This document shows positions 2,277 through 41,786 of a DNA stretch of 41,786 bases, piece after piece; within the stretch, counting starts at the first letter, position 1, and every line of letters starts with the position of its first letter. Below the pieces are notes generated by a model. It was not told the DNA's origin and made no database searches. It worked only from the letters and a program-made list of their open reading frames with translations. The stretch comes from a virus: IMG/VR virus record IMGVR_UViG_3300022818_000088, positions 1-41,786 of that record, one strand, 5' to 3'. The position numbers and the translations under genes are program-made.

Positions 2277-2293
2277 GCATCACGCCCCCAAGT

Positions 2294-2737: not shown

Positions 2738-2741
2738 AAAA

Positions 2742-2975: not shown

Positions 2976-3006
2976 TCAAGACTTGGGCAATCGTCAACGC
3001 TACGTG

Positions 3007-3450: not shown

Positions 3451-3453
3451 AAA

Positions 3454-4152: not shown

Positions 4153-4469
4153 ACACCCTGAGCTGGATCGTTGCACTCGAACCGCAAGAAAGCTTCCCCC
4201 GGCGTTTTCTCGATTGAATCAATCCGGTAGGTGTCCCCCAGGTAAATGATGCGGTTTTTAAGGGCTGGCCCCGGTGTCGGGAATACTGAGCATCTGGCCA
4301 CAAAGGATAAATCAGAATGCAGTTTGAAACCGCCCTCGGCCAGGTCCTTGCCGCGCTTGGCTGAAGAGGGGATAATCGGATACAACTTCCCGGCCCAGAT
4401 AATCGTTGCGCCAAGCGAGGATTCGAGGTCTAGCAGTCCCTCTTCCATCAAATCAGACACGTCGCTCAT
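4149..4469 (-). CDS. Putative head-tail connector protein (gpFII-like position)
   Basis: A 106-aa protein beginning MSDVSDLMEEGLLDLESSLG and ending in a beta-rich part (IIYLGDTYRIDSIEKTPGE). Small beta-sandwich connector proteins of about 100-120 aa occupy this position in lambda-like phages, and the central pattern of a compact strand-rich domain fits. It overlaps the glycosyltransferase gene upstream by 17 nt and the downstream gene by 4 nt (ATGA). Not proven by motif. Confidence 0.5.
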   Translation of the reverse strand: MSDVSDLMEEGLLDLESSLGATIIWAGKLYPIIPSSAKRGKDLAEGGFKLHSDLSFVARCSVFPTPGPALKNRIIYLGDTYRIDSIEKTPGEAFLRFECNDPAQGV

Positions 4470-5076
4470 TCACCAGTTGCTCCGCTGTCAAAGGTGGGGG
4501 CGCTTCTGAGGTTGTGGAACTGTAACGGTAAAAGTGGAGCACTCTGGGGATATGTTCCTCACGTAAGCCCGGCATGGAGCAGAGCGGGGCAGCAAAATCC
4601 CAGTCCTCTCCGTAGCTGGCATCTGGGAAATGAGACAGGATGGCCAGCGACCGGCGCCACGCGCAGACGTGCCATGCGTTACGCTTTGCCATGCCGCCTG
4701 GGACAAACGGTTCATTGGGATTTCCCAACCTGAATTCGATGTCCCCCTCGTCGGTATTTATCTTGCAGTGCTGCCGGAACGTAATCACGTCCGGGTTGCT
4801 CACCATTGCCCCCAGGAGCGATTTGACGTAATCACCTGCTACCAGGTCATCATCATCGCAGAAAGCTACGTAGCGGCCACGGGCGGCACGAAGAAGGGAA
4901 TCCCGCTTGGCTCCTATGGTTCGCCTCCAATTGTCCATCAAGACCAAATGTTCGACGGGAAGGTCTTTAATTTGCTGGCCAATACTATCGGAAAGATTCT
5001 CCAAAAGGTCAAATCGTGTTGGAACTGCCGGCGTTAGAATCGAGAGCCAAATATTAGGAGTGGACATAGATTTCAT
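4453..5076 (-). CDS. Family 2-type glycosyltransferase
   Basis: A 207-aa protein with the GT-A nucleotide-sugar fold signature: N-terminal strand SILTPAVPTR (about 12-21), then RAARGRYVAFCDDDDLVAGD (about 84-103), in which the DDDD stretch is the DXD metal/nucleotide-binding motif. It would transfer a sugar from an activated donor; the acceptor is unknown. The start may be at 5076 or at a second ATG at 5067; both overlap the FkbM gene end. It is the last of three consecutive sugar-modification genes placed between capsid and connector genes. Confidence 0.8.
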   Translation of the reverse strand: MKSMSTPNIWLSILTPAVPTRFDLLENLSDSIGQQIKDLPVEHLVLMDNWRRTIGAKRDSLLRAARGRYVAFCDDDDLVAGDYVKSLLGAMVSNPDVITFRQHCKINTDEGDIEFRLGNPNEPFVPGGMAKRNAWHVCAWRRSLAILSHFPDASYGEDWDFAAPLCSMPGLREEHIPRVLHFYRYSSTTSEAPPPLTAEQLVNERRV

Positions 5077-5692
5077 CTTGGTTGGTGCGAAACACTAGCT
5101 GAAATCCCAGTGGCCATAGAAAGTTTGCGAATCTCGGGTTGCCGTCATTACACTCAACGCTGATAATGTGGATTACCATCCGGTGCCATTCGATTGAATT
5201 TAAGACGCGCATTTCCTGGCCCTCGACATCTATGGACAAGTAATCAATGTTGCTGACTTTGAATTCATCGAAAATCGCTTGCGCCCGGCGAACCGGAACG
5301 GTGGTTCTAGAAAATAGGCCCGACCGCAGTTTAACATATTCATCTTCAACAGCACGGTAACGCCCTGGTTCTTCTTTTTCAAGTCTTGAAATCGTGCTCC
5401 AACTTCCTTCGGCCACTAGGAATTCCGCATCCCCGTCGAAATCCGAAACTGCACATTGCAAGCAAGTGCAATTCCTGTTTGATTGCAACGATGGAAAACT
5501 GACAGGACTTGGCTCAACGCAAATCCCAGTCCATCCCCGTTCCCTCTCAAAAAAACAGGTGTTGCTATACTCAACTCCATCGTGTGCGCCAAAATCAACA
5601 AAGAATCCTCCCCTTAATTCGTCAAGTTGTTTATCAACCGCGAAGTCCTGCTTGTTTTGGGAATAGTAAACTGGTATCCCGTTCATTGGCAT
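5054..5692 (-). CDS. FkbM-family SAM-dependent methyltransferase
   Basis: A 212-aa protein with FkbM signatures: GGFFVDFGAHDGVEYSNT (SAM-binding motif I, about residues 26-43), GWTGICVEPSP with the acidic ribose-binding Glu, and IDYLSIDVEGQEMRVL, the family's D-x-E-G motif. FkbM enzymes O-methylate sugars or natural products. The ATG at 5692 follows the stop of the upstream gene by 2 nt; the longer reading to 5899 would run inside that gene and its extra N-terminus looks non-coding. It likely methylates the glycan made by its neighbours. Confidence 0.88.
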   Translation of the reverse strand: MPMNGIPVYYSQNKQDFAVDKQLDELRGGFFVDFGAHDGVEYSNTCFFERERGWTGICVEPSPVSFPSLQSNRNCTCLQCAVSDFDGDAEFLVAEGSWSTISRLEKEEPGRYRAVEDEYVKLRSGLFSRTTVPVRRAQAIFDEFKVSNIDYLSIDVEGQEMRVLNSIEWHRMVIHIISVECNDGNPRFANFLWPLGFQLVFRTNQDEIYVHS

Positions 5693-5694
5693 AT

Positions 5695-7935: not shown

Positions 7936-7971
7936 AAAACAAAAGGCTCGCCGCGATTGGAACGGCGAGCC
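7936..7971 (-). terminator. Intrinsic terminator-like hairpin upstream of the glycan cassette
   Basis: Perfect 9-bp arms (7945-7953 and 7963-7971) with a 9-nt loop. Read leftward, the stem is followed by TTTTGTTTT that ends at the ATG of the fusion glycosyltransferase. It would terminate or attenuate transcripts coming from the capsid genes, so the downstream cassette and tail genes must depend on read-through, antitermination or a local promoter. Confidence 0.75.
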
Positions 7972-8053
7972 ATACCCGGCCAAGTTAAAGAAAAGGGGCG
8001 GGCCAATCACTCCGCCCCATTGGTTAGATTGTGTTTATGGGAACACTTTGATT

Positions 8054-8425
8054 TCAAGATTTTGCGCTGTGTTGCCGCAAATCCTTGAGCGCCACCGTGT
8101 GCTCGTGCTGGGTGGAGAGGGGATTGGCCAGAACAGCCGCGGCCTTGTCGATGTTGGCGCGCGATTCAGCGATTTGTTTCTCAAGATCATCCTTCGTAGC
8201 AATGACTTCATGAGTCGGCGACAGGAAAGTAGCTTCATCCTCGAATGCTTTGGCGACGTGGGCCAGGCCAGGGTGCCCCCAACCCGACGCATCGCGCAGT
8301 GCCCGCGCGATTCGGAGCAATGAATCGGTTGTGGTTCTACCCTTGATAGGCTGTTCCTCTTTTTCGGCAGCGACTCTCTTGGTAGCGTCCGCACTGGATT
8401 CGTGTTGTAATGATGCGTTATACAT
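8054..8425 (-). CDS. Helical head-region protein, unknown
   Basis: A 123-aa hydrophilic helical protein beginning MYNASLQHESSADATKRVAA, located just after the major capsid gene. I chose the ATG at 8425 because the longer frame (to 8695) runs antisense-free but out of phase through the capsid gene and reads as Arg/Ser/Thr noise. The alternative 119-aa frame at 8035-8394 looks like a shadow. The C-terminal half is coiled-coil-like (TKDDLEKQIAESRANIDKAA). Perhaps a head-completion or decoration protein; no domain recognised. Confidence 0.6.
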   Translation of the reverse strand: MYNASLQHESSADATKRVAAEKEEQPIKGRTTTDSLLRIARALRDASGWGHPGLAHVAKAFEDEATFLSPTHEVIATKDDLEKQIAESRANIDKAAAVLANPLSTQHEHTVALKDLRQHSAKS

Positions 8426-8459
8426 ATCGTTATACGTTAAGTGTTTGGTAAAACGGGAA

Positions 8460-9347
8460 CTAGTCAGACCGCCCGATGATTCGGCCCGAGTTGGTGATCC
8501 CCACCACGTAGCCGTAGTTGCACTCCATCGCCATGTATCGAGTGCCGGTGGCCGGGTCGTAGAAGTCACGCAGCCCGAACGTTGCGCCACTCGATGGATC
8601 GGTGAACGCCTCGGCTCTGTCGTAGCGGTCCTTGCGCTGAGGTTCCAGATAGCGCATTCCAATTGCGATTGCGGACGGGAAGGCGATGAACGCATTCACC
8701 GAGGCGGCAGAGACAAACGAACTGTTGAGCTCGTAGAAGTCCATTCCCAGTGCCCGCATAATGCGGCCTTCCTGCAATACGCCGGTGTCCTTGAACATCT
8801 GGGCTTGCACGAAGTTGGTGACGCCCAAAAGGCTATCCATCGCGGTAGCGTCAATCAACGCCACCCGGCCAGTCTTGGGAACATTGTCCACATTCAAAGC
8901 CAGGCGGGCAGCGCGGAGTTGCTTCACGTCGAGGCCGGTACTGGCGCAGGAAGTGACCTTCGTGAAGTTGGCGGTCGTAACCAGCGTCAGCACGTCCTCC
9001 ACGACGCACTGAGCGAGGGCTGCACCCTGTTGGAAGCCGAATGCTTCCAAGTTAGAGTAGCCGTTATCCAGCGCGTCCAGATCAGTCTGGCCAATGGGCA
9101 CCATCTTGTGCCGGTTGATCGTCACGGTGATGACGCTCACATTGAAAGTGGTGATGGCGTAGGTTCCTCCGAACGTGGTTGCGGTCAGTGCGCCGATAAG
9201 CGGCACCAGTACCACGTTGCCGCGAGTGCGGCCCACGGCTTCGGGACTGAATGAGGTGGAAAAGACTCGCAGCGCGGCCAGTTCCTTTACGAATCCCTCC
9301 AGGGCAGCGCTGGCCAGCCTGGGGATATTGAGGTTTGTGTATGCCAT
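8460..9347 (-). CDS. Major capsid protein
   Basis: A 295-aa protein. Position (after protease and scaffold-like genes), size and composition fit an HK97-fold/P22-type coat protein. The N-terminal arm (MAYTNLNIPRLASAALEGFV) leads to a long helix-like stretch (ELAALRVFSTSFSPEA), followed by strand-rich segments (VSVITVTINRHKMVPIGQTD). The C-terminal region contains FGLRDFYDPATGTRYMAMEC followed by NYGYVVG, a pattern common in coat proteins of this kind. A 334-aa open frame on the opposite strand over this gene (8250-9254) is a shadow. It forms the icosahedral shell. Confidence 0.85.
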   Translation of the reverse strand: MAYTNLNIPRLASAALEGFVKELAALRVFSTSFSPEAVGRTRGNVVLVPLIGALTATTFGGTYAITTFNVSVITVTINRHKMVPIGQTDLDALDNGYSNLEAFGFQQGAALAQCVVEDVLTLVTTANFTKVTSCASTGLDVKQLRAARLALNVDNVPKTGRVALIDATAMDSLLGVTNFVQAQMFKDTGVLQEGRIMRALGMDFYELNSSFVSAASVNAFIAFPSAIAIGMRYLEPQRKDRYDRAEAFTDPSSGATFGLRDFYDPATGTRYMAMECNYGYVVGITNSGRIIGRSD

Positions 9348-9385
9348 AAAATGTCAGTTACTTGGTTTGTTGTGTTGTGGTTCTG

Positions 9386-9811
9386 TTACTCCCAGGAAAG
9401 GTCGATCGCGGCTTTGTTCTTGCGGTAGAAGGCCACCCGCTCGCGTGGATCGGTGATCTCCTTATACTTCGCCACCAGGCCGGTGTCCTTGACCGCCGTG
9501 CCGGCGGCGGCCGGAATGGTTTCAGCCTTCACGCCCAGGCCGGCCAGCGTCTCAGTGACCTTGCCCTTTTCTGCGGCAACCGAGGCGGTCAGTGTAGCGA
9601 GTTCGGTGTCCTTGGCCGTTAGTGTCTTACCCGACAACTCGGCGGCGGCCTTGAGTTCCTTGATCGTGGTGTCGCGGGCGACGATGTCATTAACCGCAGT
9701 TGCCAGCTTTCCAGTAAGCTCGGTGATTTGATCGGCGGACGCTTTCGCCGTCGAAAAAAACGACTTCACTTCATTGCGAAACTCACTCAGCGCCAAAAGT
9801 ATTTTGTCCAT
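9386..9811 (-). CDS. Putative scaffolding protein
   Basis: A 141-aa, highly helical, Ala/Thr/Lys-rich coiled-coil-like protein (TELTGKLATAVNDIVARDTT) ending in KNKAAIDLSWE. The ATG at 9811 is preferred over TTG at 9832 because it has AAAGGTG a few bases upstream. It overlaps the protease C-terminal coding region by 29 nt. In lambda and many HK97-like phages the scaffold is encoded at or near the end of the protease gene and just before the capsid gene, which matches this arrangement. Confidence 0.65.
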   Translation of the reverse strand: MDKILLALSEFRNEVKSFFSTAKASADQITELTGKLATAVNDIVARDTTIKELKAAAELSGKTLTAKDTELATLTASVAAEKGKVTETLAGLGVKAETIPAAAGTAVKDTGLVAKYKEITDPRERVAFYRKNKAAIDLSWE

Positions 9812-10649
9812 ATACACCTTTGGCGTCGTCAACGCGCCGAGTGAAAACCTCCTGAGAAATTACCTCGTCAACCAAGCCAACATCCCTTGCTTGACTACCG
9901 ATAAATACCTGACCTTGCATGGTCTCATCATCCACCGGGCGATTAGCTTGGACGTGGGTTTTGAACATCCCAGCATAGTGATCCACGATGCCCTGCATGT
10001 ATTCTCGCTGCGCCGGCGTCAAAGACGTGCCGGGAAAGCCGGTCCCCTTGAGAGGCCCCGAGGCTATCAGGTCCACCTTCACGCCCTGCATTTCGTAGGC
10101 TAGGCTTTCGTCCAACATCGCAGACATTGCCCCGATGGAACCTACTACCGAGGACGGGGTGCAGTAAATCTCATTGGCCCCGGCGGCAATGTTGTAGGCC
10201 GCACTGCACATTTGCGTGTCTGTGATTGCCTCAATCCGTATGCCAGCATCCCGAATAGCTGCTACCTTGGACGCCACTTCCTGATTGCCCTGGCACATGC
10301 CACCAGGCGAGTCTATTTTCAGCACGATCTTTTCCAGGCCGCGCGCGTGTCCGGCAGTCTCAAGGTCGCGGCTTACGTCGTCATAGCTACATGCACCGCA
10401 CATTTTTTCGATAAGTGAGGCGTGTTGAACCAGCGTTCCGCAAACGGGGATAGTGGCCACACCGTCAACGAATTCAAACTTGGGCATCGGATTGCCAAAG
10501 AAGTCCACTTCCGGGTTGCCCGATGGTGTCTGTTCCGGACCCATCCCTTCAAGTTTGCGGCGGACAATGGCGTGGACAGATGACCAGCCCTCGCGTGTGA
10601 TTGCCCACGGCTCAAAATAGACGGCTTGGATTATTTGCTGGAACTTCAT
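9783..10649 (-). CDS. Prohead protease, S49 (SppA/lambda gpC-like)
   Basis: A 288-aa S49 peptidase. IVLKIDSPGGMCQGNQEVAS (about 108-127) is the family oxyanion/strand region, TDTQMCSAAYNIAAGANEIY (about 143-162) holds the nucleophile Ser149, and ASGPLKGTG supplies the candidate general-base Lys201. It processes scaffold and prohead proteins during maturation. The start at 10649 overlaps the portal stop as ATGA. The C-terminal end overlaps the scaffold-like gene. Confidence 0.92.
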   Translation of the reverse strand: MKFQQIIQAVYFEPWAITREGWSSVHAIVRRKLEGMGPEQTPSGNPEVDFFGNPMPKFEFVDGVATIPVCGTLVQHASLIEKMCGACSYDDVSRDLETAGHARGLEKIVLKIDSPGGMCQGNQEVASKVAAIRDAGIRIEAITDTQMCSAAYNIAAGANEIYCTPSSVVGSIGAMSAMLDESLAYEMQGVKVDLIASGPLKGTGFPGTSLTPAQREYMQGIVDHYAGMFKTHVQANRPVDDETMQGQVFIGSQARDVGLVDEVISQEVFTRRVDDAKGVYGQNTFGAE

Positions 10650-12184
10650 ACTTTTACTTGCGGCTTGGTGACGGGTGGTGTCGGTGAAGGATTGGCCGAC
10701 CGCTGTTCGAGTAAATCCATTGCTCGCTGGAAATTCACCTTGCCCCCGCTGGCTGCCTCAATCTCAGAAGCATCCCGGACATTGGCCAGAATCTCACTCT
10801 TCCGCTGGCGCTGGATTTCTTCCCAGTAACGGCCCTGCTTTTGAGCAATGAGCGCCTTTGTGGTGGTCCCCATCTTGAGGTTCTCACGGTCGGCCTGCTC
10901 ATCATTGCCGGCATCAACACTGAGTGGCTTTGGCAAACCAAAATCCCATCCGAAATAAGCGTCCTTTGAATCGGGGTTACGGCTCAGGAAACCGTTCTTC
11001 ATGGCCTTGGCCAGAGCGTAGCGGACGGCCCGCCAGGTGCGCCGCAATCCCAATCTCTGTTGCTTCCAGATGCTCTGATTTCCCAAATCAACCACGAGGC
11101 GAGTGGCCGCACGGCCTGACTCATTCAGGTAGATGAGCTCGTAAGCCCAGCCGACCGCCTTGATCCCCCGGCGCTCGATGCGTGCGATGAAGTTTTCGAC
11201 GTTCGGGTGCGGGGTAGAAAAGTTAAGGCCCTCGAGCGCTTCCCCGTCTGTCGAACGCAGGTAGTACATGTCCCCGCCCTGAATCTCTTCATAGGTGACG
11301 GTCTTTTCCGCGCCGGTTGAGTCTGTGACTGTCTCTTCAGTGAGAATTTCATTGCCCAGGCCCGCCTCACCCTCGGCGTTCTTGTGCACAAGTCCAACCG
11401 AAGACGCTCGCTTGATGCCCCGCTTTAGGAACGAGTCAATGTCCTGCAAGTCCATCCAGTCAAGGGAACATCGCCCGACCAGGGGAATGCCCCGGCCTTG
11501 ATCTTGCCATTCGGGCAGGTAGGCAAGGTCCCCACGGCCGCCGTAGCCGATTGAGAAATTCTGGAAGGTCTCCGCGCCAGCCTGGTCATTTCCCATCACG
11601 CGGGCGGCTACGGGAGTGCCCGCACTGTTGAAGATGATGCCATCAAATATCTTGTCGCCCTTGTAGTCGCCCTCCTTCACCGTGTCGCCAGCAAGGCCCC
11701 GGCCGCTTCCGATTCGTGCACCGCTGATAAACTCCACCTTGGGGAACCCCGTCTCGTCTTCTGTCAGCAGCATCAAATCGTCGCCGTCCCGGTCCCAGGC
11801 AATTCCGCTCAAGTAAAGCAATGTGAGCCAATCGTGCCGACCATGCCTGTCGGCATTGGGAAGGAATTGGTCTTTGAGAAAGGCCGTCGCTTCCAGTCCC
11901 CATTTCAGGTTTGCTCCGGTATAGTGCGGGTCCCAGGCATCACCGAAAGCCCAAAAATTCTTGTCAATGATGGCACTGCCGAGGTTTGCCAATTGGGCAA
12001 ATAACTGGCGCGAATATTGAACCATCTCTGCCCGGTCAAAGCCGGATACCGCAAGTTTAATGTCAGTGGCTATCGTGCGGCGGGGCAGATAGTTCTGGGG
12101 AGCGTGCCGGGTGCTTGGGTAAAGGCCGTATGAAAGCGGCCTGCCGGTCGGACCGTAAAGCAACGGGTGGCGGGCGGGTTTCAT
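10646..12184 (-). CDS. Portal protein, lambda gpB-like
   Basis: A 512-aa protein of the lambda-type portal family. Features include an N-terminal Asn/Trp-rich region (FGDAWDPHYTGANLKWGLEA), GIAWDRDGDDLMLLTEDETG, the lambda-portal-like block GRCSLDWMDLQDIDSFLKRG (about 239-258), and the C-terminal KTLIAQK-type helical tail rich in basic residues ending PPVTKPQVKV. It forms the dodecameric DNA channel at one vertex and docks the terminase. It is coupled by ATGA overlaps to both the gpW-like gene and the protease gene. Confidence 0.9.
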   Translation of the reverse strand: MKPARHPLLYGPTGRPLSYGLYPSTRHAPQNYLPRRTIATDIKLAVSGFDRAEMVQYSRQLFAQLANLGSAIIDKNFWAFGDAWDPHYTGANLKWGLEATAFLKDQFLPNADRHGRHDWLTLLYLSGIAWDRDGDDLMLLTEDETGFPKVEFISGARIGSGRGLAGDTVKEGDYKGDKIFDGIIFNSAGTPVAARVMGNDQAGAETFQNFSIGYGGRGDLAYLPEWQDQGRGIPLVGRCSLDWMDLQDIDSFLKRGIKRASSVGLVHKNAEGEAGLGNEILTEETVTDSTGAEKTVTYEEIQGGDMYYLRSTDGEALEGLNFSTPHPNVENFIARIERRGIKAVGWAYELIYLNESGRAATRLVVDLGNQSIWKQQRLGLRRTWRAVRYALAKAMKNGFLSRNPDSKDAYFGWDFGLPKPLSVDAGNDEQADRENLKMGTTTKALIAQKQGRYWEEIQRQRKSEILANVRDASEIEAASGGKVNFQRAMDLLEQRSANPSPTPPVTKPQVKV

Positions 12185-31570: not shown

Positions 31571-31801
31571 ATGAAGCTTCCACCCTGTGACCATGATGGA
31601 TGCGGTCCAATAGGCTGCCGGCGCAGTGGGGAATTCGGCGGCGTGTGGACCGCGACGGGAGAGCGCATAAGTGACGGGGTGAAGGTCATCGAGGCAACGC
31701 ATACCAACGGATACCCGTCCGATTTACCATGGTGGGAGTGGCAAACCATGCCGCCGTACATAAAGCCGTCCGGCCCACCAGAACCGGACGGACCACTATG
31801 A
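31571..31801 (+). CDS. CDHxGC-motif microprotein
   Basis: A 76-aa protein beginning MKLPPCDHDGCGPIGCRRSG. Paralogue of the N-terminus at 25859. The rest (FGGVWTATGERISDG; WWEWQTMPPYIKP) is Trp-rich. ATGA overlap with the PP-loop gene. Zinc-binding is likely, function unknown. Confidence 0.6.
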   Translation: MKLPPCDHDGCGPIGCRRSGEFGGVWTATGERISDGVKVIEATHTNGYPSDLPWWEWQTMPPYIKPSGPPEPDGPL

Positions 31802-32586
31802 ATGAAGTTGCCCTGTCGAACGTAATCTCATTCTCTGGTGGGGTGTGCAGTTTCTGGACTGCGGCTCGCGTGGTTGCACGTTACGGTAAGGAAAATGTGA
31901 CGTTGCTCTTTGCGGATACGAAGATGGAAGACGAGGACCTCTACCGATTCTGCCGGGACGCAACACAATACCTGGATGTGCCGCTGACAACCATCGCGGA
32001 CGGCAGGTCTCCGTGGCAGGTATTCGGCGACGAAGGCATGATGGGCAACAGCAAAGTGGACCTGTGCTCGCGCATCCTCAAACGCGAACTGTTAGACAAA
32101 TGGACTCGCGCGCACTGCCTAGAGATGACCAGCACGCTCTACGTCGGAATAGACTGGACTGAGGAACATCGGCTGACCCGCCTCCGATTGCGTAAGCACG
32201 GCTGGCGCATAGAAGCGCCCATGTGCGAGCCGCCGCTGTGGGACAAGTGCCGAATGCTCGCGGAACTGCGGGCAATCGGTATCGAGCCGCCCAGGCTCTA
32301 CAAGCTGGGATTCCCTCACAACAACTGCGGAGGATTTTGTATAAAGGCGGGGCAGGCGAACTTCGCGCACCTCCTGAGAGTGATGCCGGAACGGTATGCA
32401 TATCACGAGGCTCAGGAGGAAGCGATGCGTCTCCGGCTTGGCGACGTTTCCATAATGAAAGACCGGCGCAACAAGACTACGGCAACCCTGACAATGAAAC
32501 AACTCCGAGAACGCATCGAACGGGGAGAATCTTTTGACCGTTTTGAGTGGGGAGGTTGTGGATGCGCCATAGATTCTCCCGACTAA
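31798..32586 (+). CDS. PP-loop ATPase, PAPS reductase/adenylating family
   Basis: A 262-aa protein. VISFSGGVCSFWTA (about 9-22) is the PP-loop (SGG) motif that binds ATP to adenylate substrates. Conserved-looking cysteines at DLCSRIL (about 90), HNNCGGFCIKAG (Cys177, Cys181) and GGCGCA (254, 256) could hold an iron-sulfur cluster or carry sulfur. Relatives act in sulfate reduction, tRNA thiolation and DNA phosphorothioation; this one cannot be assigned. The ATG at 31798 overlaps the upstream stop; it closes the early operon before the convergent terminator. Confidence 0.8.
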   Translation: MNEVALSNVISFSGGVCSFWTAARVVARYGKENVTLLFADTKMEDEDLYRFCRDATQYLDVPLTTIADGRSPWQVFGDEGMMGNSKVDLCSRILKRELLDKWTRAHCLEMTSTLYVGIDWTEEHRLTRLRLRKHGWRIEAPMCEPPLWDKCRMLAELRAIGIEPPRLYKLGFPHNNCGGFCIKAGQANFAHLLRVMPERYAYHEAQEEAMRLRLGDVSIMKDRRNKTTATLTMKQLRERIERGESFDRFEWGGCGCAIDSPD

Positions 32587-32588
32587 AA

Positions 32589-32616
32589 GCCGGTGGCGCC
32601 ACCAGACGCCACCGGC
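32589..32616. terminator. Bidirectional terminator between convergent operons
   Basis: GCCGGTGGCG (32589-32598) and CGCCACCGGC (32607-32616) form a 10-bp stem with an 8-nt loop, 2 nt after the PP-loop stop. On the minus strand it is followed by TTTTAG. It would end both early and late transcripts. Confidence 0.7.
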
Positions 32617-32660
32617 CCCCATGAAAAGGCTGCCGCATAAAGCCCCGGCAGCAAGGCAGA

Positions 32661-32771
32661 TCAAGCAGGGGTGCCCTGAATGCAACTGACCAGGAACCAG
32701 GCAAGGAACAGCAGGAGGATGATCATCGCCGCCGTGCTCGCCAAGCTGGTTCTATCCCAAGGATTTCTCAC
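32661..32771 (-). CDS. 36-aa mini-lipoprotein, lysis-cassette end
   Basis: Found on the minus strand after the caspase-like gene: MRNPWDRTSLASTAAMIILL, then LFLAWFLVSC, ending CIQGTPA. A hydrophobic helix with an LVSC lipobox leaves a mature peptide of only 7 residues. The GTG start at 32769-32771 overlaps the caspase stop as GTGA. Size and form recall bacteriocin-release lipoproteins and Rz1-like outer spanins. Below usual gene-calling length. Confidence 0.55.
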   Translation of the reverse strand: MRNPWDRTSLASTAAMIILLLFLAWFLVSCIQGTPA

Positions 32772-33580
32772 GTAATTAAGTCGTCCACTATCGAGGCCCC
32801 GGCCCCCAGGACGTTAAGCACCGGATGCTGCGGAGCAAAGGTTTGGACCACCGCCGCAGTTTCCAAGAGCCAACTTTGACGGGTCAGCAGTTTTCCCTGA
32901 GCCTTCGCCTGCTGCCAGACTCCCAAGAGCGTCCCCATGAATACCCCGTTGTGCGGGCCGTCGCCGGCCGTCTCGTCTTTCGTGCACGCGCAGAGTTGCA
33001 GGATTGCGGCTTGGATGTCGCCAGACTTTTCACTGGTCGGCGGAGTGGCCACCACCCATTTCGGAGCGACCTTGGGCGTGAACCGCTGTCGGTCTCGACC
33101 CATGCCCTGGGAAAAGCAGGTATCTAGGACGTACATGACCTTGACGCCTTCCGGCCACCCGCACATGAGCGAGTGAAACTCCACGTCGGTTAAGGTGCCA
33201 TCTGCAAAGCACATGCTCTCGTTGTTTCCGTAGAACGGAGCCATGTATTGCGAGCCGTGGCCGCTGTTGCCGATCAAAAATTCATCACCGGGCTTTGCAG
33301 CCATCTGCAATTCAGAGTGCGCATTTCGCCAGGCCGCTCTGGTGCAGTCCAGGGTCATAACCCAAGGTGCCCCAGGTGCCGGCGGCCCACCGACGTTCCA
33401 CCCGCTGAATATCGCCCTCGAGTCGTAGCCCATGTTGCTCGCGCACTGGGCCAGACCGCGGGCGTCAGGGATGCAGCCAGCGAGAAGGCCGGACCAGCCG
33501 CCGGCTGGGTTGGCGTCGGGGTTGTATTCGGGTGCGAACTGGTCAACCGCGTTCTGCCCGAACGTCACGCAAGCCCTCAC
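32768..33580 (-). CDS. Caspase/metacaspase-fold cysteine protease
   Basis: A 270-aa protein. The GTG at 33580 overlaps the upstream stop as GTGA; the longer frame from 33670 lies inside the neighbour. Metacaspase p20 features occur in order: LLAGCIPDARGLAQCASNMG (about 32-51), then FLIGNSGHGSQ with catalytic His108, then VMYVLDTCFSQGM with catalytic Cys155, and later ACTKDETAGDGP and FMGTLL (about 198-219), matching the strand-helix end of the fold. Metacaspases usually cleave after Arg/Lys. No signal peptide. It sits last but one in the lysis-like cassette; function in lysis, host killing or protease interference is inferred. Confidence 0.85.
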   Translation of the reverse strand: MRACVTFGQNAVDQFAPEYNPDANPAGGWSGLLAGCIPDARGLAQCASNMGYDSRAIFSGWNVGGPPAPGAPWVMTLDCTRAAWRNAHSELQMAAKPGDEFLIGNSGHGSQYMAPFYGNNESMCFADGTLTDVEFHSLMCGWPEGVKVMYVLDTCFSQGMGRDRQRFTPKVAPKWVVATPPTSEKSGDIQAAILQLCACTKDETAGDGPHNGVFMGTLLGVWQQAKAQGKLLTRQSWLLETAAVVQTFAPQHPVLNVLGAGASIVDDLIT

Positions 33581-33903
33581 TTGTGCACCCCCGGTAGAAC
33601 CGCACCATGCGCCAGAGCCAGCACCAGGGCATTGCGCCTGGCGTCTGTGGCCACGGAGTCGTAAACCCATAGCATTGGGCCTCCCGTGGCACCCGACGCT
33701 GCCAGGGCGCTGGAAACGTCAGCAGGCGGCATCGCCTTGAACTCAATGGTTACGCCGGCAGTGATTTCCCCGGTGGCGGGAGTGTAACCACCAGTAGCGG
33801 ATATGCTTTGGACTGACTTGCAACCCGTTGTGCACGAAACCAGTGCCGCCGCCGGGATAACCAGGGCAACGATTACTGGCAATATGAAGAGTAGTCTTTT
33901 CAT
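33577..33903 (-). CDS. Lysis-cassette lipoprotein B
   Basis: A 108-aa protein. MKRLLFILPVIVALVIPAAA followed by LVSC is a type II signal; a second Cys pair (TTGC) follows. The mature part is 80 residues of Gly/Ala/Thr. ATGA overlap upstream and GTGA overlap with the caspase-like gene. Could be an outer-membrane spanin-type component or a surface protein. Confidence 0.65.
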   Translation of the reverse strand: MKRLLFILPVIVALVIPAAALVSCTTGCKSVQSISATGGYTPATGEITAGVTIEFKAMPPADVSSALAASGATGGPMLWVYDSVATDARRNALVLALAHGAVLPGVHK

Positions 33904-34268
33904 GGCTTTAGCTTGGGAATGACGGCAGAACCCGTCGCGTTGGTGCCGACCATCACGTCACCAGAAAACACGCTCTCTTGAGCGTCGGTGGAAATGGGGT
34001 CATAGGCGTTCTGCTTGCCGGCGTAGGCCGAGCCAAACCGCGGCGCGTAGATAGGGCCGTTGGTTGAGGTCGGTATCATGGTGATGGTTTCCCGCACGAC
34101 ACCCAATTTCACGTCAGGCAGGATGGTTCCACTGACTGGGGAGGTGGTTGTCAGCTTGATGCCGACAATCCACGAGGTTTGGCTGATGATCTTGTTCGAG
34201 TTGAGGGCCGTCTGGCAGCCGCACAACATGAGGACTGCCGCCAGAGCCGCTATGGTTTTGTTTTTCAT
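33900..34268 (-). CDS. Lysis-cassette lipoprotein A
   Basis: A 122-aa protein starting MKNKTIAALAAVLMLCGCQT, with an LCGC lipobox at about 15-18. I chose the ATG at 34268, because it directly precedes the signal and lies 8 nt after the previous stop; a longer frame to 34316 would overlap. Mature part is Ser/Thr/Pro-rich. Outer-membrane location expected. Function unknown. Confidence 0.7.
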   Translation of the reverse strand: MKNKTIAALAAVLMLCGCQTALNSNKIISQTSWIVGIKLTTTSPVSGTILPDVKLGVVRETITMIPTSTNGPIYAPRFGSAYAGKQNAYDPISTDAQESVFSGDVMVGTNATGSAVIPKLKP

Positions 34269-34275
34269 AAATAGT

Positions 34276-34539
34276 TCAGTGAATGAAGCAGTTTGAGAAC
34301 ATGGTCGCGACCGCATTCCAGGATACCACTACCCCATGGCCAGTCGAGTCGAACGGTTTAGCTTTTGGCCACACGCTCACTTCGCAGGCGTCCCCGGGAG
34401 AATCTGTCACGAGAGCCTCGACCATCGCGGACGGCCCGCTGATGAGGAAGTTTGGAGCGAAGGCCAGGAGTTGACCTTGCTTGCCGTCATAGGGAGTTAC
34501 CCCCGTTTTTTTCACCCGTAGTGTGATTTGCTTTGTCAT
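34276..34539 (-). CDS. Small beta-rich protein, unknown
   Basis: An 87-aa protein beginning MTKQITLRVKKTGVTPYDGK, with a strand-rich pattern (AFAPNFLISGPSAMVEALVT) and a C-terminal Cys-His (SNCFIH). No signal peptide. Located between holin-like and lipoprotein genes. Confidence 0.55.
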   Translation of the reverse strand: MTKQITLRVKKTGVTPYDGKQGQLLAFAPNFLISGPSAMVEALVTDSPGDACEVSVWPKAKPFDSTGHGVVVSWNAVATMFSNCFIH

Positions 34540-34550
34540 GCGTTTTCTTT

Positions 34551-34883
34551 CTATTGGCCTGGTTTTATTTCGGCTGGCGGTGCGGCCGGGACCGTTGCCG
34601 GTTCGTTCTTCGTCTGTACCGTAACCGTTTCACTGCGTAAAGTCGAGCCCTCTCCGCTTGTTTTCATCTCGATCTTGTAATCGCTAAAGGACTGCGACAG
34701 GAACGCGAGCATCTGGGTTGCCGCGCCGACAAAACAGCCCGCGCCAATCACCACCCAATTGACAAGCGGGGGCCAGTGCCCAGAGTCCATCCACTGGCCG
34801 AGGCCGGTAGCCAACGGAGCCATGCCGCCGATCACCGTGAAGCATACGCCCTTCGTGATGATTATTGCCGTCTCGATTTTCAC
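34551..34883 (-). CDS. Holin-like membrane protein
   Basis: A 110-aa protein with two hydrophobic segments (IIITKGVCFTVIGGMAPLAT, about 7-26; PLVNWVVIGAGCFVGAATQM, about 39-58) and a soluble charged tail (NEPATVPAAPPAEIKPGQ). Two-helix proteins of this size are typical class II holins, which permeabilise the inner membrane. Its position in the cassette supports this, but no family match is certain. Confidence 0.6.
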   Translation of the reverse strand: MKIETAIIITKGVCFTVIGGMAPLATGLGQWMDSGHWPPLVNWVVIGAGCFVGAATQMLAFLSQSFSDYKIEMKTSGEGSTLRSETVTVQTKNEPATVPAAPPAEIKPGQ

Positions 34884-35080
34884 AGTTTAGGCACGTTCTT
34901 GAGGTAGTCCCTCAGTTCCGCTCGCAGTTCATACCATGCAGAACACTTTTCGGCAGGTCTCCGCCAATCTTCTGATGCCAGTGCTACCATGTCCAGAGCG
35001 CCAAGGCATCGTCTAAGCAGCCTTTCTTCGAGCGTTGTCACGCGCTTGTATCTCAACCATCGTTGAATGAAGCCCATCAT
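34880..35080 (-). CDS. Small basic helical protein, lysis region
   Basis: A 66-aa protein starting at an ATG (35080) that overlaps the upstream stop as ATGA. Basic helical segments (FIQRWLRYKRVTTLEERLLR) precede an acidic end (LRAELRDYLKNVPKL). Unknown; perhaps an antiholin or cassette accessory. Confidence 0.5.
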   Translation of the reverse strand: MMGFIQRWLRYKRVTTLEERLLRRCLGALDMVALASEDWRRPAEKCSAWYELRAELRDYLKNVPKL

Positions 35081-35511
35081 GTGCCAGTTTTGAAAAGGTG
35101 CCATACCAGAAGTCCAGTTTCAAGCGTCAATATACCAATCCCGATACTGATTAGGATATTCAACGCCCCGCGCGACCCTTCCAATACTGACATGCGCTGA
35201 TCTCTAGTTTTACCGTTGTCTTTCACTTCCTCGATTGACTTTTCAATGGAAACAATTCCAAGCTCAATCCTGATGATGGTTTCATGGTCAGTGCCGGTCT
35301 TTTCATCCACCACTTTGGCGCTTACTGCAGCGGCGGCGGACACAACCCTGGCGGCGTCGGCGGCTGCCGCAGTCAAGACCCTGACGGCATCCGCAGCCGA
35401 TTGGACGATTACTTTGGACGCGCTATCTGCCGCGTTGGAGATTACCCTTAGCCCTTCGTCGGCGGCATCTTTCAAGTCGTCTCGATCTTTAGTGGTTCTG
35501 TTTGGTGCCAT
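35077..35511 (-). CDS. XhlA-like coiled-coil membrane protein
   Basis: A 144-aa protein. Residues about 15-75 are an Ala/Val-rich heptad-like coiled coil with repeated AADA/AAA units (SAADAVRVLTAAAADAARVV). After KSIEEVKDNGKTRDQRMSVL comes the C-terminal hydrophobic helix (ALNILISIGIGILTLETGLL), ending in a short basic tail. This is the hemolysin XhlA/holin-accessory architecture. First gene of the lysis-like cassette. Confidence 0.6.
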   Translation of the reverse strand: MAPNRTTKDRDDLKDAADEGLRVISNAADSASKVIVQSAADAVRVLTAAAADAARVVSAAAAVSAKVVDEKTGTDHETIIRIELGIVSIEKSIEEVKDNGKTRDQRMSVLEGSRGALNILISIGIGILTLETGLLVWHLFKTGT

Positions 35512-35541: not shown

Positions 35542-36948
35542 TCACGGTCGCCAGTTAATGAGTTGCAACGGTCCCCCGTTTGTAGGCGCGAAGGTTTTCC
35601 CAAACTGATAGTCATTGATCTGACCAAAAAGAAACGACACCGTATTGGACTTGATCTGTTCAGGGTCGGGATTCAGCGCCCAGTTGGGTGAATATGTGTT
35701 GCTGAGATAGAACTTTGTCCATGTCTCAAAGTTGTCACTCGACTTGTAGCAGACGATGCCGGGCATTTCTCCAGGGAAATTGTTGGGCAGCACTACGTAA
35801 CTGGTGCCATTAACTGAAACAATAGATGGGTAAGGATACGGATTCAGATTGTTGATGCTGCGGTCGTTCGATGAAATGGCGAAGTTGGCAGTCCATGCGA
35901 ATCGGTTAAGCGTGAGTTGATGCTCAGTTACGCTATTCCCGGTTGAGTTTTCCATGACAAATAGGTTCCACTGGTTACCAAGGCGAGTATAGGCAACCTG
36001 TGCCACCCCATTGGAAGTCAAACAGAAATCACATTGTACGTTGAAATCTCGACCTGAAAGCGCAGGAGTTACATTCCCAATGTTGAGTGGATAACTGAGC
36101 AAGGAACCATCGAAATTGTAGATGTTTCCATCAGTGGCGAACTTGAATAAATACTGATTTGTCCCAATAGTTTTGAGAGACAACGACCACCATAGGTTTC
36201 CCGACGAATCGAACTTCGGAAGCCCGTTCAAGTACTGTGAGGACGTTGGTGTATTTAATCCATTCCAAACAACACAGGTGGCATCCACCCACTTCGACGG
36301 CTGAGCCCAGGCAGTAGTGGTCGTGTTGTATTGATACATTATCTGATCCGATGTGCCAGAATCCCCCTTCCGAAAGGTTAAATATAGTTCCCCTGCATTG
36401 TCTTTGAACAAGAACGGATAAGTGGACCTGGTTTCTATTAAAGAACTCACCAAGGGGTAGATTAGTCCCGTCCAGTTGGTGACCTCGTATGGAAACGAAG
36501 TGCGAATGTAAAGGAGGTTGGTGGCGTGTGCCCCATAGAAGCAATGACCGAAACCAGTCTTGTCGAACTCAAGTGACGCGATCTTGTGCTCATCATCGTT
36601 GTTGTTGTACGGAAGCTGGAGAAGATAAAGGAGGTTGGTGGTCGTTGTGATCGTGGTTATACCACTAGATAAGTCCTTATCCGTGAAGCAAAGGTGCAAG
36701 TTGGTATTGTAGTAAACCCCGTATTGATGAGTTCCTGCGGTACAAAGCTGGTTCTTGGCGATGCTGATTCCATTCAAGCCGCTCGCCGTATAGGCGTTTA
36801 GGATGGCGGGATTTGTGTCAGCCAACCATAGCAGCGACGGCGGATTAGTCGTAGTTCCACCGACTCCAGACAATGAACCTAAACCGCTAAGGGTCTGGCC
36901 TAGGCAGGAGACGGCCAGGAATAGATAGATAATCGGCATTAATTTCAT
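35542..36948 (-). CDS. Secreted BNR_4-type beta-propeller (sialidase/lyase-like)
   Basis: A 468-aa protein. MKLMPIIYLFLAVSCLGQTL is a Sec signal with a possible lipobox (AVSC). The rest matches BNR_4: DEHKIASLEFDKTGFGHCFY, STYPFLFKDNAGELYLTFRK with GDSGTSDQIMYQYN, then LPKFDSSGNLWWSLSLK. The family includes polysaccharide-lyase-like propellers and sialidase-fold proteins. No catalytic residues can be assigned by eye. ATGA overlap with the YadA-like gene. A virion depolymerase or a secreted glycan-binding protein are both possible. Confidence 0.75.
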   Translation of the reverse strand: MKLMPIIYLFLAVSCLGQTLSGLGSLSGVGGTTTNPPSLLWLADTNPAILNAYTASGLNGISIAKNQLCTAGTHQYGVYYNTNLHLCFTDKDLSSGITTITTTTNLLYLLQLPYNNNDDEHKIASLEFDKTGFGHCFYGAHATNLLYIRTSFPYEVTNWTGLIYPLVSSLIETRSTYPFLFKDNAGELYLTFRKGDSGTSDQIMYQYNTTTTAWAQPSKWVDATCVVWNGLNTPTSSQYLNGLPKFDSSGNLWWSLSLKTIGTNQYLFKFATDGNIYNFDGSLLSYPLNIGNVTPALSGRDFNVQCDFCLTSNGVAQVAYTRLGNQWNLFVMENSTGNSVTEHQLTLNRFAWTANFAISSNDRSINNLNPYPYPSIVSVNGTSYVVLPNNFPGEMPGIVCYKSSDNFETWTKFYLSNTYSPNWALNPDPEQIKSNTVSFLFGQINDYQFGKTFAPTNGGPLQLINWRP

Positions 36949-39419
36949 GGGGCTAGTTTTACCGCTGTGTTGCTTGCCGATCCATCTGCGGTGTAACTGT
37001 AGTAAAGGAACGTATTGGAAACCCAGGTTGCGCCATTCCCTGCTCCAATCTGCGCTGGTGTAGGGGCCGACGGTTGGTTCGTCATGATCACTGCACTGGC
37101 CCGGATTGATATATTGGCGCTGTCGTTACCGTTCCTAAACGATACCGTTGGCGAATTGGTCGGGTTCTCAACCTTGATGTATGGCCAGTCTTCTGTCGTC
37201 TTTCCTAGAAATAGTCCCAATGCTCCGCTTAAATCACTCAATAACAGTTGCAACGTACCATTGGTCGGGCTGAACAGTTGAGATTTAGCCTGCCAATAAT
37301 ACGGCGCCCCACCAGCAACGCGGATACCAGATCCGCCTGACGCATAGACATTTGCACATCCAAAGTTGCCATTGTTGTCCCCATACATAGGATACAACGT
37401 TCCGGTGGCGAATGCGGAATTGGAAACCGAACCCACAAGTTGTAGCTGCCACGCTGGATTAGCTGAAGTTCCCTGTTGCGGAACCAGCACCCATCCCGCC
37501 CCTATCGGCATCGAGGTTGAATTACCACTCCTGAACCCCTGACCGTACTGAGCAATGAACGGACTATACTGCTGCCCATTTAAGACTGCTGGCTGTCCAT
37601 TCGATGAAACAAACGACGGCACAAACGTAGCACCCAGTCCGTCCACCTGTAATTGTTCGTCCTGACCATACACTTTATGGAAGTAATTGGACGATCCAGT
37701 GGCAGAGACGTTTCCCAACACCGCCAGGTTAGTGGATACGACAAGATTAGTTCCTGTGCCAGTGAGATTCAGTTGAGGAGTACTCACTGGATTGCTGAAG
37801 GTGTTTGTGCCGGTGAAGGCATTCGTGCCGTTCAACAGAGCCACATTCCCCGACAACCTCGCATCCGGCACCGTGCCGCTCGCCAGCGCCGAGGCGGAGA
37901 GGCTTGCGACCAGTGTGCCCGGAACATTCACCGTTCCCGATGCAGTGCCCAGCATCACCTGGTTGGTGTCGGTTGTGGCCGAGTTATGACCAATGGCCGT
38001 CGAGTTTGGGTGAGAAGCCGTTGCGGAAAGACCCAGCGCTATACTATTAGATTCGCCTGCGTATGTGTAACCTCCAAGGGCCAAAGAGCCATACCCACTC
38101 GCAGTTCCACGGCCAAGCGCTATAGAATACTTTGCTGTTGCAAAAGTTAAGCGCCCCAGTCCTACAGATTCCTCACCCGTTGCCTTCGCGCCAGTCCCAA
38201 TCGCTAATGACGAAAACCCGGAAGCGGTACTGGAATAGCCGAGCGCTATAGAATCATTCGAACTAGCATGGGCATAAGCACCACCAGCAAACGTATATTT
38301 ATCTGACGCTATAGCATCTCGACCAATGGCCGTGCCTTCGTAACCAGCGGCTACAGCTCCAGAACCAAAGACCGCGCCTCCCACACCAACGGATGCATTA
38401 GCGCCAAAAACAGTGGCATTTGTTGCATCATTCAAAAAGGTTGCGCCGGCACCAAATTTCTCGCTGTTCGTTCCAACCCCAGGAGAAGAGAAAACGCCGC
38501 TGAACCCGGTGTCCTCTTTCATTACGGCTTTCGCGGTCGCCGGGTTCGTGCCTGTGTAAATCTGACCGGGTGTGCCATTGGTGGTGAAGATGCTGAGACT
38601 TTTTGCCGATAAATTACCAACAGCATCGGCCATGACATTCCCATCATGATAGTAATGATTCCCATCCTGGTCGACGAAGAGGCCACCCGAATGGTATTCA
38701 AGATTGCCGAGGGCATCGGCAAAGACATTCCCGTCACCGAAATACCACCGCCCGTCTATATCCGCAAGGGGCTCTCCGTTGGGGTAGTACAGAGTAGCGA
38801 CACCGGCCAAATTACTGCCATTGCCGTACCGATACAGGTTTGCGGTGACATTGCTGAGCGTTGCCGATCCCCCGTTCGTCACTCCGCCAACCGCGGCCAC
38901 GTCCACCGCGGTCAGTACCGCTGCCGCATTCGTCCGGCCCTGGAAACTCACCATACCACCTGCACCTCCATCAATGTAAGTCACCGCGCCGGCGGTGTGA
39001 AAGGTCATGTTGCTCCCCGCTTTCAGAGACCATGTCGAGTAGGCCGGGACGCTCGATCCCGCGCAGATAAATGCCGGTCGCACCAGGTTAGTCGCATTCA
39101 CCAGGCCGGTGTCGGTCTCGGCAATTGAAAACCAGTTCGTCGTTGTGGTGTACGTTCCCCGGAATTCCCCACGGTAATCACCCCACACGAGATTTGACAC
39201 CGTCACGCTGCCATTTGTCCCGATTGCGCGATAGAGCCGGTCGCGGGTTGTCAGGCCCAGAGGATTAACGGCCCGAATGCACTCAGGATAAAGAAAGAAG
39301 TCCCGCCCGCCCTGGGGCGCCAGGGCGGAGTTGTAGAAATCAAACTGCACATTCACCGCCGCGCGAGCGGGCGAGAGCATGGCCAGACCAAAACAGAGCA
39401 GCAGAATTATGCGGTTCAT
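36945..39419 (-). CDS. YadA-head-like fibre/adhesin with signal peptide
   Basis: An 824-aa protein. MNRIILLLCFGLAMLSPARA is an AxA-type signal peptide. Residues about 60-200 are strand-rich and Asn/Thr-rich. Residues about 221-270 hold two copies of DGxxYF/YYxDGNVxADAxGNL. Residues about 330-500 hold YadA-head (Hep_Hag) repeats of the form SxALGxxxxAxGxxS (SIALGYSSTASGFSSLAIGT; SVGLGRLTFATAKYSIALGR). The C-terminus contains LLLSDLSGALGLFLG and Trp-rich strands. Trimeric beta-roll fibres use this module for adhesion. The signal peptide is highly unusual for a phage tail fibre. Confidence 0.75.
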   Translation of the reverse strand: MNRIILLLCFGLAMLSPARAAVNVQFDFYNSALAPQGGRDFFLYPECIRAVNPLGLTTRDRLYRAIGTNGSVTVSNLVWGDYRGEFRGTYTTTTNWFSIAETDTGLVNATNLVRPAFICAGSSVPAYSTWSLKAGSNMTFHTAGAVTYIDGGAGGMVSFQGRTNAAAVLTAVDVAAVGGVTNGGSATLSNVTANLYRYGNGSNLAGVATLYYPNGEPLADIDGRWYFGDGNVFADALGNLEYHSGGLFVDQDGNHYYHDGNVMADAVGNLSAKSLSIFTTNGTPGQIYTGTNPATAKAVMKEDTGFSGVFSSPGVGTNSEKFGAGATFLNDATNATVFGANASVGVGGAVFGSGAVAAGYEGTAIGRDAIASDKYTFAGGAYAHASSNDSIALGYSSTASGFSSLAIGTGAKATGEESVGLGRLTFATAKYSIALGRGTASGYGSLALGGYTYAGESNSIALGLSATASHPNSTAIGHNSATTDTNQVMLGTASGTVNVPGTLVASLSASALASGTVPDARLSGNVALLNGTNAFTGTNTFSNPVSTPQLNLTGTGTNLVVSTNLAVLGNVSATGSSNYFHKVYGQDEQLQVDGLGATFVPSFVSSNGQPAVLNGQQYSPFIAQYGQGFRSGNSTSMPIGAGWVLVPQQGTSANPAWQLQLVGSVSNSAFATGTLYPMYGDNNGNFGCANVYASGGSGIRVAGGAPYYWQAKSQLFSPTNGTLQLLLSDLSGALGLFLGKTTEDWPYIKVENPTNSPTVSFRNGNDSANISIRASAVIMTNQPSAPTPAQIGAGNGATWVSNTFLYYSYTADGSASNTAVKLAP

Positions 39420-39449: not shown

Positions 39450-40178
39450 TTAGTGGTTTGTCCAGACGGGAGACCAGCCCATCGCGCTACCATCCGCGCT
39501 GTACACCTGCGCCCAAAAGCTCGGCGCGGTTACGCCGATGGTAACTCCGGTCGGCGCGGAGTTCGTCGGGAATCGGTAGGCAGCGGCCGCCAGCACACCC
39601 CACGCGTCAAAGGTTAGGCCGCCCGATGCCAGGAGTGCAGAACCGTCCAGGTAGAAATTGTTCCGCCCCTCATTCATGTGGGTTTCCCGCATGGTCACAT
39701 TGCCCACGGTATCCGCCTGGAATCCCCCGCCGGCGAAATAAATCGAACCGTCGGCATTCAGCCTTGCTGCCCCACTCGATGCGCTGACAGAGCCAGCCGT
39801 GTCAATCTGGTTCGTGAGTGTGGCGGGCATCGCGGTGATTCCAGAACCGAAAAGGAACTGGGCGAAGAGGCCAAACAGGTTGGTATTGAGGGTATTCGTG
39901 CTGACGTATTCCGCAATGAGCCGCAAGTTGTGGTTTGCCGCCTGCCACGCCATCCAGGTGTTGACCCCGTGGGCATAGTTCGTGCCCCTGGCCCAGTTGA
40001 CGTAGTTGGTCCCGCCATCCCACCAGGCCGGCAGGTTGGTGCGCGAGTAATCAGTCGAGTTTGTGGGGTTGACGGCCCAGGGGATAGTCACCAGATTCGA
40101 CAAGTTTCCGCTTAGGTTAGTTTGCGCCCGTGCCGTAAGGCCGCAGAGCAAAGCTGCAATGATGATAAGTGTTCGCAT
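39450..40178 (-). CDS. Secreted protein related to the YadA-like neighbour
   Basis: A 242-aa protein. MRTLIIIAALLCGLTARAQT is a clear Sec signal (ARA cleavage site). Asn/Thr-rich body (TNPTNSTDYSRTNLPAWWDG region). It contains DGSIYFAGGGFQADTVGNVT, the same motif as in the 824-aa neighbour (DGxxYFxxGxxxADxxGN). Likely a paralogous partner fibre or secreted protein. The 31-nt gap to the next gene shows no terminator. Confidence 0.65.
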   Translation of the reverse strand: MRTLIIIAALLCGLTARAQTNLSGNLSNLVTIPWAVNPTNSTDYSRTNLPAWWDGGTNYVNWARGTNYAHGVNTWMAWQAANHNLRLIAEYVSTNTLNTNLFGLFAQFLFGSGITAMPATLTNQIDTAGSVSASSGAARLNADGSIYFAGGGFQADTVGNVTMRETHMNEGRNNFYLDGSALLASGGLTFDAWGVLAAAAYRFPTNSAPTGVTIGVTAPSFWAQVYSADGSAMGWSPVWTNH

Positions 40179-41452: not shown

Positions 41453-41786
41453 CAGTACTTCGCTTGGTACAGGAGCGGGCAAGGCCAGAGTCCATAAGTC
41501 CATTCTTGCACGATCTGCGTCTTTTGTCGCGCCGATAGGCGGATAGTCGGGTGCATTTTAAACCAGCCATAGATCAAGTTGGCCTTGGATGAAATGTCTG
41601 TTGGAAGGTTGAATAGCAAGTCCCCAGGCATCGCCTCATCTGAGATTAACTGGCCAGACGTGAAGATTCTCCCCACGTTTGTCAGTGAGGCTTTGATGGC
41701 GTAGGAATTGGAAACGGTTTGAGTGTGTCGCACGGTCGGGGCATTCACATCAATCGAACGCAAGCCCGCTTGCACTAATGCGTAAA
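41452..41786 (-). CDS. Distal tail protein-like gene, 3' part (spans the window ends)
   Basis: C-terminal continuation of the gene at 1-524. Bases 41696-41786 duplicate 1-91, so the non-redundant end of this part is 41695. It encodes the last 81 codons (including the stop), beginning near KASLTNVGRIFTSGQLISDE and ending LLYQAKY. Function as described for the 1-524 part. Confidence 0.75.
   Translation of the reverse strand, partial: YALVQAGLRSIDVNAPTVRHTQTVSNSYAIKASLTNVGRIFTSGQLISDEAMPGDLLFNLPTDISSKANLIYGWFKMHPTIRLSARQKTQIVQEWTYGLWPCPLLYQAKY
41696..41786. repeat. Terminal direct repeat, right copy
   Basis: Identical to bases 1-91; redundant sequence of a circularised assembly. Delete one copy to obtain the 41,695-bp circle. 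Confidence 0.95.

Follow-up and report, generated by a model that had tools for sequence, protein, structure and literature searches.

The locus and its late operon

The window, by which we mean the whole stretch of 41,786 nucleotides analyzed here, is an entire IMG/VR record (IMGVR_UViG_3300022818_000088) bounded by a 91-bp direct terminal repeat (1–91 and 41696–41786). It thus represents the full genome (41,695 bp, assembled as a circle) of an uncultured bacterial virus, in which an ORF across the genome junction is intact. It encodes TerS/TerL, a portal, a head protease, a capsid and a tape-measure-like protein, which together identify it as a tailed phage, as well as Erf and a helicase. 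Its TerL resembles those of phages of Flavobacterium, Verrucomicrobia, Akkermansia and others at ~20–25% identity. The head and tail genes occupy the late (minus) strand and continue across the terminal repeat into 41784–32661. Along this strand, the portal is followed, past the junction, by a YadA-head fibre, a BNR protein, a block of small genes (coding for 144-aa, 74-aa, 110-aa and 87-aa proteins and two lipoproteins), the caspase gene, a 36-aa ORF and a terminator:

521–12184, minus strand: head and tail genes of the late strand, including the next four
10646–12184, minus strand: portal
9783–10649, minus strand: head maturation protease
8460–9347, minus strand: capsid
521–1669, minus strand: tape-measure-like protein
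36945–39419, minus strand: 824-aa YadA-head fibre-like protein (YadA_head E=2.7e-18), N-terminal signal peptide
35542–36948, minus strand: 468-aa BNR_4-repeat protein, fibre/adhesin-like (BNR_4 E=2.5e-20), N-terminal signal peptide
35077–35511, minus strand: 144-aa Ala-rich protein, probably helical, with a C-terminal TM segment; no significant profile match
34880–35104, minus strand: 74-aa protein overlapping its downstream neighbor; no profile match
34551–34883, minus strand: 110-aa holin candidate with two TM segments predicted from hydropathy only; no holin profile match
34276–34539, minus strand: 87-aa protein of the same operon; no profile match
33900–34268, minus strand: second lipoprotein, likely start MKNKTIAALAAVLMLCGC, ATGA overlap with the 108-aa gene
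33577–33903, minus strand: 108-aa lipoprotein, GTGA overlap with the caspase start
32768–33580, minus strand: caspase gene, 270 aa, GTG start, Peptidase_C14/metacaspase-like cysteine protease
32661–32771, minus strand: 36-aa lipoprotein-like ORF, GTG start, hydrophobic stretch, lipobox LVSC
32575–32660, minus strand: probable late-operon terminator, a strong hairpin followed by CUUUUAG, core ~32583–32622

The caspase is thus the next-to-last gene of the late operon. A chimeric origin of the contig, with the caspase derived from host DNA, was rejected, as the genome is complete with its terminal repeat and the gene lies inside this operon. The end of the 108-aa lipoprotein gene and the caspase start share ...CAAGTGAGG (GTGA), while the caspase stop overlaps, again by GTGA, the GTG start of the 36-aa ORF, the lipobox of which reads VRNPWDRTSLASTAAMIILLLFLAWFLVSC/IQGTPA and which is too short for profile searches. 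Overlap coupling to lipoproteins on both sides, as claimed in the initial annotation, is therefore borne out at both ends of the gene, and we propose that the caspase is translationally coupled to two lipoprotein-like genes. The longest ORF of the second lipoprotein runs from an upstream ATG (33900–34316). The terminator hairpin has a predicted energy of -49.2 kcal/mol (z=-4.3).

No endolysin or wall-hydrolase profile was matched among the main proteins of this complete genome, nor was any holin or spanin profile matched in the window, where the two lipoproteins and the 36-aa lipobox ORF would be the candidates for a spanin-type lipoprotein. Hence, the lysis label given to this region derives from its layout and from comparison with other phages. 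No gasdermin or other pore-forming domain was found among the neighbors of the caspase.

Elsewhere in the genome, the region between the head and tail genes (4453–8010, minus strand) encodes a glycosyltransferase, as well as a 771-aa protein for which two matches are of glycosyltransferase type and one is of methyltransferase type. The gene for a phosphoadenosine-phosphosulfate-reductase-like protein (31729–32586, plus strand; phrog_424, E=1e-44) faces the caspase operon in convergent orientation. The two fibre/adhesin-like proteins listed above and a third, lacking a profile match, at 39450–40178 (minus strand) appear to start with Sec signal peptides, which virion proteins do not usually have; a similar fibre/adhesin-like protein with a signal peptide is found in another phage, L125 (1813–3255).

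A prokaryotic-type metacaspase

The initial annotation had recognized in this ORF the metacaspase motif order, and all its elements are present: GCIPDA (with Asp39), NSGHG (His108), LDTCFSQG (Cys155) and CACTKDETAG...FMGTLL. A Pfam profile search recovered PF00656 (Peptidase_C14) with 47.4 bits (E=2.5e-12) against a curated cut-off of 21.4, a score that excludes a chance motif match. The best sequence match in the PDB is GSU0716 (3bij, E=4.7e-15), with plant metacaspases 9 and 4 following as weak matches. The structure predicted with AlphaFold2 from a 42-row alignment (pLDDT 81, pTM 0.82) displays the caspase–haemoglobinase fold: in a Foldseek search, the model retrieved 3bij at the top (E=2e-18, TM 0.77), and after it AtMC9, AtMC4, T. 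brucei MCA2 and yeast metacaspases. The reading of the motifs as coincidental was accordingly rejected on both profile and fold. Together, the profile, structure and catalytic residues support the identification of the gene product as an active-site-intact prokaryotic metacaspase of the GSU0716 type.

In the predicted model, the first strand of the domain starts at residue 2, leaving no type I-style N-terminal prodomain, and only ~35 residues separate the Cys strand (147–157) from the next one (192–199), so that there is no long p20–p10 linker in the type II style; the Arg/Lys-rich linker (~residues 160–185) is modeled with low confidence. Alignment of the caspase profile extends over the whole of 3bij, and its positions 4–251 align with yeast metacaspase-1, which suggests that a p10-like part is present. 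Orthocaspases consist of p20 only, without p10 (PMC5756287). The protein has neither a signal peptide nor a TM segment and would thus be unable to reach the periplasm until the membrane is breached.

Active site and predicted specificity

The His108/Cys155 dyad is intact in the order SGHG ... D-x-C-x-S in both the 42-row and a 57-row alignment. Across 57 non-redundant viral homologs including the window protein, there is no variation at His108, Gly109, Asp153, Cys155 or Ser157, and all 55 sequences that cover the position of Asp39 keep this residue. As these homologs show only ~20–33% identity to the window caspase, the retention of His, Cys and Asp153 in 57/57 points to catalysis being under selection. 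We take Asp39, Ser106 and Asp153 to form the S1 pocket that selects Arg/Lys at P1, by analogy with T. brucei MCA2; by alignment, all three are intact, and the enzyme is predicted to cleave after Arg/Lys.

The acidic pair of the DDEL motif, presumably Ca2+-binding, is incomplete in this protein, which has Asp132–Val133, while the second Asp is present in 43 of the 57 viral homologs. The same Val occupies this position in AtMC9 (ITDVDF, as compared to LTDVEF in the window caspase), the one metacaspase reported to be Ca2+-independent (PMC5756287). From this shared residue, Ca2+ independence of the phage enzyme is a reasonable but unproved prediction. For this protein, we infer not only catalytic activity, specificity and Ca2+ independence, but also the timing of its action and its substrate.

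Around Cys155, the usual CHSG is replaced by CFSQ, with the Gln being unique among the 57 homologs. This loss of the customary His and Gly could indicate a pseudo-enzyme or regulator that retained the fold and lost proteolysis. However, no residue of the dyad or the S1 pocket is missing, and Phe follows the catalytic Cys in 13 of the 57 rows, the window included; we therefore consider loss of activity very unlikely.

Viral relatives and their gene neighborhoods

A tblastn search of 50,697 named phage genomes with the window caspase returned no match, and searches of the same set with three phage relatives yielded one uncultured 485-kb phage and, from one of the three queries, a weak match (E=6e-4) in an uncultured 21.6-kb record. 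These two uncultured records are consistent with the earlier claim that no characterized tailed phage carries such a gene. PHROGs has no family for it. In the open-licence literature, no phage metacaspase was found, the only viral one recovered being the medusavirus enzyme; Baltic Sea virome papers only cite a bacterial metacaspase paper. Cellular homologs are common in many phyla (381 confirmed loci in one scan). The enzyme family is already known; its use by phages appears to be undescribed.

When used as single-sequence queries against IMG/VR and genome contigs, the caspase, TerL and BNR protein of the window recovered no relatives, and profile scans were needed to detect those of the caspase. 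The IMG/VR profile scan gave 28 loci, with 27 of these first 28 records passing the PF00656 cut-off, and later scans added more. Leaving aside duplicates and contigs that are probably cellular or redundant (L026, L154, L158, L160, L161), there are 56 further IMG/VR loci with caspase relatives, all of which keep the His and Cys.

In six otherwise dissimilar records, no more than 1 kb separates the caspase from a gene for a cell-wall hydrolase or a DUF5675 protein, and in the first five below the caspase lies directly beside a profile-confirmed wall hydrolase:

L008: weak Rz/holin-like 97-aa protein, lipoprotein, tail-lysozyme-type hydrolase (1.6e-27) overlapping the caspase start, caspase
L013: TM protein, Amidase_2 (4e-10), caspase
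L115: lipoprotein, GH24 lysozyme (Phage_lysozyme 2e-8), SNase-like nuclease, caspase
L124: caspase, then N-acetylmuramidase (Muramidase 1.7e-71)
L142: NlpC/P60 and PG_binding protein overlapping the caspase start
L024: DUF5675, caspase, weak holin match

The initial annotation placed the window gene in a lysis cassette. The relatives lend that placement support, as unrelated phages carry the gene beside endolysins; on the other hand, the window itself offers no endolysin or holin profile match. With six hydrolase-type families searched, a gene of this kind was found in 12 of 50 records, and in 6 of the 12 its distance to the caspase is no more than 1 kb, as compared to ~0.7 records expected if placement were random (P about 1e-5, in a test that is partly post hoc as families were chosen partly after seeing the neighbors). 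The three commonest families alone give 3 of 9 records within 1 kb (P=0.005). Small membrane proteins are also enriched among the direct neighbors of the caspase (23/147 versus 76/1058, P=0.001), as are lipoproteins (5/147 versus 9/1058, P=0.02). No universal link between caspase and lysis genes was found: the other 6 hydrolase-bearing records (e.g., L014, L117 and L118), mostly larger genomes, have the two far apart. In the large phages L117 and L118, many ORFs open with ~TLRxKLIRLAHxxPELRPHLLPIL, resembling a shared N-terminal tag.

Several relatives bear membrane-targeting ends, namely a C-terminal TM segment (L015, L018–L020, L027–L031), an N-terminal amphipathic helix (L016, L024, L144, L148) or, in L134 (7902–8771), a lipoprotein signal (VMVGC) at the start of the caspase itself. 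These fit with action at the membrane, although the window protein has none. Several of the C-terminally anchored forms (L015, L018, L019, L020, L027, L030, L031) come from large phage contigs, and most of their loci share a conserved neighborhood of small signal-peptide proteins. In two different phages, an SNase-like nuclease gene lies directly upstream of the caspase and overlaps it (L115, 7577–8735; L011, 7555–8756), possibly forming a nuclease–protease pair.

The genome of L125 has no other detectable similarity to the window, but encodes in order a lectin-like protein with a signal peptide, a lipoprotein and an overlapping caspase. The lipoprotein shows a weak similarity, in a single comparison, to the 108-aa lipoprotein of the window (35% over 40 aa, E=1e-4). 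This layout and similarity suggest a lipoprotein–caspase module common to unrelated phages.

Such arrangements could also point to a processing protease that matures the signal-peptide-bearing fibre/adhesin or other virion proteins encoded just upstream: the window caspase lies downstream of the YadA-head and BNR proteins, L125 repeats this order, and the L012 and L125 caspases sit among tail or fibre-like genes. Yet this phage already has a head maturation protease, the fibres have an export signal that the caspase lacks, and the relatives adjoin endolysins of several families with differing fibres. The recurrence beside endolysins weakens the fibre-processing proposal, which we deem unlikely.

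The same recurrence weakens the proposal that the gene is cargo, benefiting host or phage outside lysis, for instance as a transferred cellular metacaspase for stress or superinfection control. The close relatives in many cellular phyla, the G+C content of the gene (61.5% versus 54.6% for the genome) and the long branch in the tree would agree with such an origin. That tree was quickly built, with long branches and cellular rows picked by similarity, so that several clusters of phages can be read from it, but not the number of captures. The stop–start overlaps inside the late operon are not those of a separately promoted unit, and we regard the cargo proposal as improbable.

A late protease with a proposed role in lysis

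To the observed caspase fold, dyad, aligned S1-pocket residues, operon position and recurrence beside endolysin genes, we add the interpretation, to which we assign a probability of about 0.5, that the gene product is a cysteine protease which is made late, cuts after Arg/Lys independently of Ca2+ and functions in lysis. The metacaspase would be produced late, from the penultimate gene of the head–tail–fibre–lysis operon, and accumulate in the cytosol together with lysis proteins and lipoproteins. When the membrane fails, or just before, it might cut host envelope or cytosolic proteins or process a partner lysis protein, resulting in a more complete cell burst or particle release. In favor of this, only the 36-aa ORF and a strong terminator follow the caspase in a complete genome. 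Weighing against it are the window's lack of a recognizable endolysin, holin or spanin profile, the caspase's lack of a signal peptide or TM segment, the half of the hydrolase-bearing phages with a distant caspase and the close relatives common in cellular genomes without phage context.

A further-reaching version holds that the metacaspase and its coupled lipoproteins are themselves the lysis effector in a phage without a recognizable endolysin, with caspase-driven lysis recurring across unrelated lineages. Proteolytic dismantling of the cell, or activation of a host death pore such as gasdermin, would then replace or trigger classical lysis; we hold this to be quite unlikely.

An alternative is a role in counter-defense, whereby the protease would destroy or divert host immune proteins (caspase–gasdermin or other abortive infection systems) such that early suicide fails. 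Phages carry many anti-defense proteins, and two of the relatives, those of L115 and L125, are matched by PADLOC's caspase model. However, anti-defense genes are usually early, whereas this gene lies at the end of the late operon, which weakens the proposal; the relatives adjoin endolysins in other phages, the PADLOC match of the window protein is marginal (E=0.0036), and the intact active site indicates that it is no dead decoy. Hence, although bacterial defense effectors do include caspase-like proteases (PMC9079055, PMC9612521), we view counter-defense as rather unlikely. Decoy or mimicry functions were rejected given the intact active site and late position.

Returning to the late lysis protease, the relatives beside lysis genes in unrelated uncultured viruses suggest that viruses use caspase-like proteases as a means of lysing cells that has not been described so far. 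A lineage of seemingly active caspases, fixed next to endolysin genes in the late operons of phages, would mean that the virus instead of the host wields the death protease, reversing the known role of caspase-fold proteases in bacteria as effectors of host death and defense. It would also extend the holin–endolysin–spanin model by proteolysis and offer a system in which convergence of viral lysis with programmed cell death could be tested. Phage caspases would also represent compact single-domain protease tools, with that of the window probably being Ca2+-independent, as predicted above.

Comparison with known systems

The closest counterpart in both sequence and structure is GSU0716 of Geobacter sulfurreducens, an uncharacterized single-domain bacterial caspase homolog that shares the fold, length and motif order of the phage protein but is a cellular gene. 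LTDVEFH and DTCFS of the phage protein correspond to LIDDELY and DSCHS in GSU0716, and the phage protein displays an extra insert after strand 1 and a shorter loop after SGHG. AtMC9 (PDB 8a53/9n3d), the second-best fold match, has the TDV-acidic-F motif in common with the phage caspase, in the place taken by Asp-Asp in other metacaspases; it differs in being a plant enzyme with another domain layout and ~16% identity in the structural alignment.

Giant-virus metacaspases (medusavirus, Clandestinovirus and Heterosigma akashiwo virus) are likewise virus-encoded caspase-fold proteins and provide the only BFVD matches with E<0.001. However, they belong to viruses of eukaryotes, the medusavirus one having been reported previously (PMC6450098), and show about 10–25% identity in structural alignments. 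Bacterial gasdermin-associated and other defense caspases, as captured by the PADLOC model, share the Peptidase_C14 fold and the bacterial setting, but serve host defense, and the window offers no pore-former partner.

A caspase-type protease is not a known component of phage lysis cassettes, which consist of holin, endolysin and spanins. The locus nonetheless resembles these in lying where the late operon ends and in having a small two-TM protein and lipoproteins nearby; and while such cassettes include an endolysin where none was recognized in the window genome, the relatives of its caspase adjoin endolysins in other phages.
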